A stretch of DNA of 32,366 bases from Alphaproteobacteria bacterium (lineage in GTDB: Bacteria; Pseudomonadota; Alphaproteobacteria; UBA828): the NCBI GenBank assembly GCA_016869195.1, contig VGET01000009.1:1-32366 (forward strand), in the 5' to 3' direction. A model generated the notes under the pieces. The model ran no database searches and was not told the DNA's origin. It saw only the letters and a program-made list of their open reading frames with translations. This document shows positions 8,945 to 14,635 of this stretch, piece by piece. The first letter of the stretch is position 1; each line of letters begins with the position of its first letter. Position numbers and translations under genes: made by a program.

Positions 8945-9603
8945 ATGGCATCCGACGGACTCGACACGGATTTTCGGTTGGTTTCGCTCATGGGCGCCAA
9001 ATTGTGCATGACCTTCTTGGACCAATCAGCGCGCTCAGCATGGTGGCGGAGAGTCTCGAGGACGAGGATCCCGCCATGCTTGATACCTCCCGTCGCATGC
9101 TCCTCGAAAGCGCGGGCAAGGCACTCAACCGCCTGAGCTTCTATCGTGCCGCGGTCGGCCGCGGCACCACCCTCGGCTCAGGCGAGGCGAAGGGCCTGAT
9201 CGAGAAGGTGCTGGCCGAGACCAAGGTCTCTGTGAAGTGGGAGGATTCACTCTCGGCCCAGGCAGGGGAATCCGCGCCGGCGTTGCTGAAGATCGCCATC
9301 AACCTCGGCTATATGGTCGGGCACGCCGTCCATGGCGGCGGCACGCTCACTATTCGGCTCTCGGGCTCCTTGGCGGCGCCCTCGATCAGCGTCAGCGGCA
9401 GCGGACAGCGGCTCGGGTTTGAGGAGAGCGCACGTGTCGCCTTGCTCGCCGGCGCCGATGCCGACCTCAAGGCGATTGCCGGGCTCGACCCGCGGGCTGC
9501 ACAGCCCTATTTCACCGGCCGGCTTGCGGCGGTGCTCGGGCTCAAGGTCTCGGTGCCGACGATCTCGCCTGCCACGATTGAAGTGGTGGCCGCCCGCGCC
9601 TGA
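8945..9603 (+). pseudogene. chpT: ChpT-like histidine phosphotransferase, apparent 1-nt frameshift at the conserved His
   Basis: Frame 2: ATG 8945 MASDGLDTDFRLVSLMGAKLC; frame 1: HDLLGPISALSMVAESLEDED...IEVVAARA to 9603. Together they give the expected KLC-HDLLGPI H-box, split by one missing base at about 9007. Confidence 0.8.
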
Positions 9604-9761: not shown

Positions 9762-10634
9762 ATGGACGACCTACTGAGTGAATTTTTGACCGAGAGCGCC
9801 GAAAGCTTGGCAACGCTCGATGTCGAGCTCGTCAAGCTCGAGCAGAACCCGGAACCCAAGCTCATCTCGAGCATTTTCCGCTTGGTTCACACCATCAAGG
9901 GCACCTGCGGCTTCATCGGCCTGCCGCGACTGGAAACGCTGGCGCACTCGGCGGAGAACGTGCTCGGCAAGATCCGCGATGGCAAGTTGCCAGTCAGTTC
10001 TCAGGCGATCTCGCTGATCCTCGCCTCGATCGACCGGATCAAGATGATCCTCTCGGTGATCGAGAAGACTGAGGCCGAGCCGGCGGGAACCGACGCCGAC
10101 CTGATCGAACAATTGAACGCCATGTTCAACGGCGATGCGGTCGCGACCGAGGCCGCCGCGGTTGCAGAGCCGGTTGCCGTCGTCGAGCCGCCGCCGGCGC
10201 TTGAGCCGAAGGCCGAACCCGCTCCGACTGCCGCAACCGCTGCACCCAATGGCAGCACTTATGAACACCTTGGCGGTGCCATCGCGATTGAAGCGACGAT
10301 CGAGCTCTTCTTCGCCAAAGCGATGCACGATGCATCCTTGGCGGCGCATTTTGCCAAGGCCGACATCGCGACCATCAAAAAGCAGCAAATGGCGTATCTG
10401 GCGGGGGCGCTCGGTGGTCCGACCGATTCCATCGCCAGCGCGCCGAATGACCTGCCCATCGGGATTGAAAATCTCGTCATTGGTGGTGAGACGGTCGAAG
10501 TCGATGTCGGCGCTCACCTCGGCGCGCACCTTGCCGAAGCCGACAATACGCTCGACGATTTCCTCGATCGAACGGGCGACCCGTTCCTCGAACGCAATTC
10601 GGTTGTCCTCGGCATTCGAGCCTCCGGCGCCTGA
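9762..10634 (+). CDS. CheA-type Hpt domain protein followed by truncated-haemoglobin-like segment; 3' part (from about 10428) is antisense fliF
   Basis: P1 motif RLVHTIKGTCGFIGLPRLETLAHSAENVLGKIRDG; Pro/Ala linker; YEHLGGAIAIEATIELFFAKAMHDASLAAHFAKADIATIKKQQMAYLAGALGGP resembles group I/II truncated globins. Sequence after GGPTD is the reverse complement of fliF coding sequence. Confidence 0.8.
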   Translation: MDDLLSEFLTESAESLATLDVELVKLEQNPEPKLISSIFRLVHTIKGTCGFIGLPRLETLAHSAENVLGKIRDGKLPVSSQAISLILASIDRIKMILSVIEKTEAEPAGTDADLIEQLNAMFNGDAVATEAAAVAEPVAVVEPPPALEPKAEPAPTAATAAPNGSTYEHLGGAIAIEATIELFFAKAMHDASLAAHFAKADIATIKKQQMAYLAGALGGPTDSIASAPNDLPIGIENLVIGGETVEVDVGAHLGAHLAEADNTLDDFLDRTGDPFLERNSVVLGIRASGA

Positions 10635-11348
10635 AGCGCCGCCGCCATCGCCGCGAGCCAGCAGATTGCCGGCATCGTCGACGATCGCGATGCGGCCGAC
10701 CGCCAGGCCAGGCACGGCGGCGGCGACCAGATTTTGGATGGCGGCGATCTGCTGCCGGTTGAGCTTCGCGGCGCCGCGCAGCTTGAGTGCGATCGACGCG
10801 CTCGGCTCAACTTCACTTCGGCTGAACACCTCGCGCTTCGGCACGACGAGGTGGACGCGTGCGCCGGCCACCGGGCCAAGTGAACCGATGGTGCGGGCCA
10901 GTTCGCCTTCGAGCGCACGCAGCATGTTGACGTTCTGCACCAGGCTGGTCGTGCCGAACGCCTCGCCCTGATCGAAGATCTCGTAGCCGACCGAGCCGCC
11001 GACCGGCAGGCCCTCTTCGGCAAGGCTCATGCGAACGCGAAGAACCTGATCGGCCGGCACCATGATCTGGGTGCCGTCGCCGGCCAGCTGATAGGGCACG
11101 CGTTGCGCATCGAGCTTGGCGACGATCTCGCCGGCGTCCTTCGATGTCAGACCGCCGAAAAGCAGCGCCATGTTCGGCGCCGACATGCGGCCCATCAGAA
11201 AGATGAAGAAGATACCGACGCCAATGATGACCGCGCCCAAGATCACAAGGCGCGTCAATCCAAGCGCGCGGATCGTCTGAGCGAAACTGTTCAATGACTC
11301 GACCCCTGAGAGGAGCCGCGCGCAACCAATCATGGCACGCGCGGGCAC
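10443..11348 (-). pseudogene. fliF: Flagellar MS-ring protein FliF, N-terminal part only (ORF 9771..11348 reads on through antisense of the cheA-like gene)
   Basis: RLVILGAVIIGVGIFFIFLMGRMSAPNMALLFGGL...VNMLRALEGELARTIGSLGPVAGARVHLVVPKREVFSR...ADIDFDRLTTNDEIFNPDGQVIR, then homology stops. The true start may be TTG at 11294. Confidence 0.87.
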
Positions 11349-14167: not shown

Positions 14168-14635
14168 TCAGAACGGATAGATGATGTCGAGCACCTGCTT
14201 CAACATGAACTCGCGGAGTGGCGCAACGGTCCGGTCATAGGCCTGTTCCTCGCTGATCTCCTCGGCGATGAGGGGCGAGATGCCGTCATTGTAGGCGCGC
14301 TCGAGCGTCGGCCCCATGACGAACGCCGTGAGGAACAGCGCGAGACTTACGATGACCGTGTTTGGCGGGGTCTGTTGCAGGCCGAGCGCGCTCCGGAGCA
14401 GCGACAGCACCACGACGATACGGGTGAACGAGGTCACCACCACGAGAATGCCGGGCGCGAGGCTCAAGACCGTGAGGAGCGCGATCAGGCGCAGGATCTG
14501 GCCGGTCGATGAGCCGCTGCCATCGGTCAGATTGAGGCTCAATTCCTGCGCGAGCGAGGGCGAGGCAACTAGCGCAGCGGTGCCAGCCAGCACCGCCGCA
14601 ACTGCGCCCGCGATCAGTCTCGTGCGCCGCCTCAT
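14168..14635 (-). pseudogene. fliP: Flagellar export protein FliP, C-terminally truncated
   Basis: 155 aa: LRLIALLTVLSLAPGILVVVTSFTRIVVVLSLLRSALGLQQTPPNTVIVSLALFLTAFVMGPTLERAYNDGI...APLREFMLKQ then VLDIIYPF*; the C-terminal membrane core is absent. Confidence 0.88.

Follow-up and report, generated by a model that had tools for sequence, protein, structure and literature searches.

A group-1 truncated haemoglobin in the P1–P3 linker of alphaproteobacterial CheA chemotaxis kinases

We describe here a CheA chemotaxis kinase that carries a truncated haemoglobin in the linker between its P1 and P3 domains. By reading the open reading frames (ORFs), this arrangement was verified in 32 genomes from 10 alphaproteobacterial families (codes f1, f39, f61, f88, f92, f96, f103, f105, f114 and f124), and in more than 25 related bacteria the architecture is complete. 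The count includes the window, the whole stretch of 32,366 nucleotides that was analysed (contig VGET01000009.1), which holds a truncated copy. We are therefore practically certain that the architecture is real. As to its function, we lean slightly towards the view that this main chemotaxis kinase, an F5-type CheA, has in its linker globin an intramolecular gas or redox sensor, which would ancestrally have been haem-based and would have become haem-less secondarily in several lineages.

In the window, the 5' third of a cheA gene of the F5-like class lies at positions 9,762 to 10,430 of the plus strand and consists of P1, a linker and half a globin. It was identified by Pfam, by identity to the same-genus genome G001 and by synteny of the left arm, and it lies in the ORF 9,762 to 10,634 (+) of 290 aa. 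The Hpt or P1 phosphotransfer domain occupies 9,768 to 10,043 (+; PF01627, E 2.4e-17, residues 3-94). Its phospho-acceptor His43 is encoded at 9,888-9,890 (+) within the motif VHTIKGTCGF, and H43, K46 and G47 are invariant across 31 CheAs. P1 is followed by a Pro/Ala-rich linker at 10,044 to 10,253 (+), assigned from the sequence, which evolves fast compared with the flanking domains. A group-1 truncated haemoglobin follows at 10,257 to 10,424 (+), of which the N-terminal half is present, from helix A through helix E and as far as the GGP motif; it was recognized by PF01152, PDB matches and a residue table. Directly upstream of cheA, a gene for a ChpT-like histidine phosphotransferase was found at 9,004 to 9,603 (+), based on PF10090 (E 1.4e-16) and synteny.

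An initial annotation, made from the letters alone, had proposed an Hpt domain joined to a truncated-haemoglobin-like segment, and the peptide that it quoted was indeed found in frame at its place in this ORF. The profile search bears out the proposal. Residues 166-221 of the ORF match the Bac_globin family PF01152 over profile positions 2-59 of 121, with E 8.5e-7 for the whole ORF and E 8.5e-8 for the segment alone, the latter at 32.8 bits against a curated cut-off of 21. Comparison of the 63-residue segment with the PDB returned 29 chains at E <= 1, globins without exception, and the top 19 matches were group-1 truncated haemoglobins and their close kin. The best match was HbN of M. tuberculosis, with E 2e-8 in a 57-residue alignment without gaps. 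Residues 1-222 of the window CheA are 70% identical to the full CheA of G001. A chance match was thus ruled out by Pfam, the PDB and the relatives. The stretch is not a P2 domain either, since PF01152 scored above its cut-off and P2 models did not match in any Pfam scan. A globin of the HemAT or globin-coupled sensor type was also considered and rejected, because the best family was Bac_globin and the position is internal, after P1. Protoglobin (PF11563) gave no match on the window ORF in Pfam and reached at most 24-28 bits in relatives, confined to the shared region.

Compared with GlbN of Synechocystis, the window globin retains both Gly-Gly motifs, PheB9, PheCD1 and GlnE11; position E7 is Ile and B10 is Phe. 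The initial annotation had rightly read the B10 residue as Phe in place of the usual Tyr, and also that the segment stops before the proximal His: homology ends at 10,424, and the F helix and the proximal His region are missing as the gene is cut before both.

The globin match ends at 10,424 because the gene is interrupted there, and on the minus strand homology to FliF extends down to 10,440. The ORF thus ends in 60-70 residues that derive from antisense fliF and do not belong to CheA. The junction between the end of cheA homology and the start of antisense fliF homology lies at 10,425 to 10,440, with about 18 kb missing compared with the same-family genome G003. The fliF gene itself, at 10,440 to 11,348 (-), is truncated at codon about 303 (PF01514, E 1.1e-61; PF08345 positions 2-39 of 147). 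In G003, a run of fliF-fliG-fliH-fliN-flbD-flhA points towards cheA-cheW-cheY-cheB-cheR on a single 21-kb contig; gene names other than cheA and fliF were assigned there by reading ORFs. The window matches both ends of this arrangement, and the approximately 18 kb between them are absent. CheA P3, the FliF C-terminus and FlhA were sought in the entire 395-contig assembly and none was present. Since the rest of cheA and fliF as well as flhA are lacking from the assembly, the window copy is either what a real deletion left behind in a lineage losing flagellar genes, or the product of an assembly join. The left arm of the window up to cheA is sound; its order fdsA-fdsB-(LysR)-DUF3553-chpT-cheA is syntenic with several relatives.

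The flagellar region of the contig contains a second break besides the one at fliF/cheA. The fliP gene at 14,168-14,635 (-) is cut to about half its length (profile 1-96 of 191) and is followed by unrelated sequence. In the same family, cheA is broken by a contig end or a frame break at loci L119, L115, L116 and L122 (genomes G010, G007, G018 and G003), and the break in G003 falls inside the globin itself. Matches of FliF antisense to CheA in relatives proved to be a tblastn artefact, which arises because the FliF ORF reads on through antisense P1.

P3, P4 and P5, absent from the window copy and its genome, are all present in the full-length orthologues. There, the order P1-globin-P3-P4-P5/CheW-(CheW)-receiver was found. 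Nine single-globin CheAs of about 1000 aa read P1-globin-P3-P4-P5-CheW-receiver (L117, L069, L157, L159, L163, L164, L162, L165 and L168); another, L169, is cut ahead of the second CheW domain and the receiver. The features of the F5 class, namely two CheW domains, a receiver and no P2, were seen in relatives such as L069, L117, L157 and L163. E-values for PF01152 in the relatives were as low as 1.3e-35. The alternative that close relatives would show an ordinary P2 or linker region at this place can thus be set aside, as their CheAs carry the globin and P2 models did not match. The linker between P1 and P3 measures 174-243 residues in globin CheAs and mostly 50-140 residues in globin-free CheAs, whose linkers are mostly 85-100 residues shorter. 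In G003 the gene lies in a cheA-cheW-cheY-cheB-cheR operon, and synteny places chpT next to it. It therefore belongs to a flagellar chemotaxis system.

In two genomes, G001 and G080, a second globin was found inside the CheW-like P5 domain. The CheA of G001 (L114, record CAMDDO010000012; also L034) extends over 873 aa to the contig end and comprises P1, globin, P3, P4 and a P5 split by the second globin. PF01152 matched it with 99.4 bits in two stretches, and the P5 globin matched group-1 truncated haemoglobin structures at E 1.7e-29 with the Tyr/Gln/His residues intact. The CheA of G080 (L118; 1200 aa) has globins at the same two positions, plus two CheW domains and a receiver. An AlphaFold model of the L034 CheA, computed with 31 aligned CheAs (mean pLDDT 75.8), contained helical bundles at residues 148-272 and 638-776, both mostly at pLDDT 75-86, and the second bundle sits between two P5 strands (621-626 and 783-790). 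A model of the linker globin alone reached a pLDDT of 47 from a three-sequence alignment that was too thin, and it was not used. When the whole CheA model served as query in a fold search, the best 50 matches were structures of CheA and other kinases and were uninformative on the globin. At the P5 site of the second globin, a globin-free CheA in G053 (L176:1512-4520 (-)) has an acidic insertion of about 100 residues, which suggests that the site is an insertion-tolerant loop.

At least 18 of the 385 sampled Alphaproteobacteria, the window counted, have a globin-CheA among the matches listed. Family f39, which spans 7 genera, has it in 16 of 17 genomes. Two of its members, G771 and G772, each carry the gene on one contig (5.87 and 5.89 Mb) that resembles a finished chromosome, which excludes a binning artefact. 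No globin was found among the plasmid matches in the CheAs of Azospirillum and other plasmid-borne CheAs. As a check outside the Alphaproteobacteria, long frames among the best matches listed were examined in a 399-genome phylum sample; the candidates (L179-L182) turned out to be spurious, each reading through the region upstream of a small globin gene. We hold the chance that the architecture is an artefact, be it chance resemblance, an ordinary P2 region or a chimeric assembly, to be negligible. The window contig does contain a join near 10,430 and a cut fliP, but this join falls after the globin half, and 32 genomes, single-contig chromosomes included, show the order Hpt-globin, with PF01152 E-values down to 1.3e-35.

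The globin-CheA is split in two related genomes, G318 (L169:2150-5145 (-), on a 4.15-Mb contig) and G395 (L170:1866-4964 (-)). The reading frame is interrupted within or just past the first CheW region, once by a frameshift and once by an in-frame stop; decay or a sequencing error may lie behind this, or the CheA may consist of two parts.

To evaluate the haem pocket, 31 linker globins were aligned. The proximal HisF8 was clear in 19 of them. In 4 others, in which the EF loop is shortened, it was ambiguous, and the remaining 8 have Asn, Lys or Phe at this position. Haem binding is therefore not universal; judged by the residues, many members are likely to bind haem and others have lost the ability. 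HisF8 was kept in all 12 linker globins with TyrB10 and was clear in only 6 of the 18 with Phe or Val at B10, an association that, since the alignment rows are related, represents few independent events (about three His-less lineages). Such a pattern is expected if the pocket residues are kept or lost together. Both P5 globins have the Tyr/Gln/His pocket. The linker globin of G001 has Phe at B10 and a poor distal pocket, with HisF8 kept.

The globin domain is under purifying selection. In pairs within genera and among close relatives, its pN/pS was 0.04-0.26, compared with 0.09-0.69 for the adjoining linkers, which were above the globin in every such pair. The range 0.04-0.26 applies to family f39, and the G318/G395 pair gave 0.07. 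The globin is intermediate between P1 or P3-P4 and the linkers, and this holds also where HisF8 is lost. The pair of the window and G001 is near saturation, with pN/pS of 0.42 for the globin and 0.22 for P1.

In a tree of 103 CheAs computed without the globin columns, the presence of the globin needs at least 7 changes, although this tree is compatible with a single origin as well. In a globin tree, the free-standing group-1 truncated haemoglobins closest to GlbN grouped with the globins of chemoreceptors (MCPs), separate from the CheA globins, and a single clade of all CheA globins was not rejected (p-AU 0.295). Given the 7 or more changes on the CheA tree and the single clade still allowed by the globin tree, the data agree both with one ancient gain followed by losses and with several separate gains. 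An old single acquisition followed by repeated loss would be the simplest reading. Two globin-PAS-MCP receptors of a known kind were seen at L161:4464-7328 (+) and L172:3983-5032 (+), the latter at a contig end with the globin-PAS part only; their globins group with free-standing truncated haemoglobins, apart from those of CheA.

As far as open-access literature could be searched, a CheA with a built-in globin has not been described before. Berry, Andrianova and Zhulin (2023) surveyed 13,673 CheA sequences (PMC10782961). In the text of that survey, the auxiliary CheA domains are P2, receiver and CheC/CheX, CheA is described as having no sensor domain, and globin or haem is not mentioned. The accessible text of a 2026 review on aerotaxis places globins in receptors only (PMC13401364). 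Globin-PAS-MCP receptors such as Cc_4972 (Bac_globin-PAS-MCP) are known (PMC6194562), and it is generally accepted that globin-MCP receptors serve oxygen sensing in the pathway to which CheA belongs (PMC13401364, PMC6194562). The open-access literature yielded nothing else that joins truncated or other haemoglobins with CheA.

Among the closest known systems is the F5-class CheA of Azospirillum, Rhodospirillum centenum and Caulobacter, which shares P1-P3-P4-P5, the second CheW-like domain, the C-terminal receiver and the lack of P2 (PMC10782961). The che operon context is common to both. The globin-CheAs differ by the group-1 truncated globin in the P1-P3 linker, a domain that the survey does not report (PMC10782961), and in two genomes by the second globin within P5. 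Homology to group-1 truncated haemoglobins such as cyanobacterial GlbN and M. tuberculosis HbN runs along the full 2/2 globin in the relatives and includes the glycine motifs and often TyrB10, GlnE11 and HisF8. These haemoglobins are otherwise free-standing, whereas the CheA globins are fused inside a kinase and some have lost HisF8. In globin-coupled aerotaxis receptors (HemAT, Cc_4972, L161) a globin likewise feeds the CheA/CheY pathway, but it is part of the receptor and not of the kinase. A haem globin is also joined to a histidine kinase in the globin-coupled histidine kinases, for example AfGcHK of Anaeromyxobacter, which have the orthodox kinase form, with a sensor-type globin at the N-terminus. 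In contrast, CheA is receptor-controlled, and its globin is truncated and lies in an internal linker.

The globin occupies the flexible P1-P3 linker, where other CheAs have P2 or a disordered linker. In lineages with TyrB10, GlnE11 and HisF8, it would be a haem protein that takes up O2 or NO as a diatomic ligand or changes its redox state. The ligand state could then alter the reach of P1 to the kinase domain P4 or the tightness of its tether, and autophosphorylation and phosphotransfer to CheY and CheB might follow the cytoplasmic gas or redox state in parallel to the chemoreceptors. Direct control by O2, NO or redox is plausible, though several lineages have lost the proximal His. For a sensor function in the haem-competent lineages we consider the arguments about evenly balanced, and we would likewise give an even chance that the internal haem globin of CheA, in some lineages together with a second one in P5, senses O2, NO or redox directly and sets the kinase output of the array. 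Several points argue against a sensor. Of the 31 linker globins, 8 lack HisF8 and 4 more have a shortened EF loop. The P1-P3 linker is unlike the sensor site of canonical sensor kinases, being a tether without an obvious lever on P4. Position B10 is Phe both in the window copy, which is truncated as well, and in the relative from its genus.

Some of the same data would fit a haem-independent docking or spacing module that substitutes for the missing P2, holds CheY or CheB or positions P1, with haem ancestral or irrelevant. The F5-class CheAs indeed have no P2 (PMC10782961), 8 of 31 domains without HisF8 are still under purifying selection (0.04-0.26 in f39; 0.07 for G318/G395), and f39 keeps the globin in 16 of 17 genomes despite a variable pocket. 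Pure docking would not need the TyrB10-GlnE11-HisF8 set that is intact in several lineages and in both P5 globins, and as a general explanation we regard it as unlikely, though worth keeping in view. For lineages without the proximal His, the globin probably is now a haem-less signalling or docking module. HbN, an NO dioxygenase with TyrB10 and GlnE11, is among the closest solved relatives of the window segment, and a protective enzyme at the chemoreceptor array, acting as NO dioxygenase or O2/NO scavenger and not as regulator, might be considered. We find this very improbable: the pocket is lost in many members, and free-standing truncated haemoglobins occur in the same genomes, so that a copy fused to a low-abundance kinase would be a poor scavenger. 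Slightly less credible still is a selectively neutral passenger in a tolerant linker. The globin occurs patchily among related CheAs, and the best tree calls for no fewer than 7 gains or losses, which would suit it, but the pN/pS is well below 1 and below that of the flanking linkers, and the globin is present across nearly the whole of a family of 7 genera.

In textbook chemotaxis, sensing is assigned wholly to the receptors. If the sensor reading holds, the CheA globin would be a receptor-independent input that acts on the output of all receptors at once and a simple way of coupling swimming to respiration or nitrosative stress. The chemotaxis kinase itself would be a gas sensor, with the P5 globin at the surface that contacts CheW and the receptors. 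Genomes in which the globin is kept, lost or duplicated amount to a natural experiment on the installation or decay of a sensor within a kinase. Apart from CheA, a CheW protein with a C-terminal truncated globin was found at L171:3479-4684 (+) on a 4.64-Mb contig of G396 (PF01584, E 3.1e-31; PF01152, E 1.9e-10), a further entry point of a globin into the chemosensory core.
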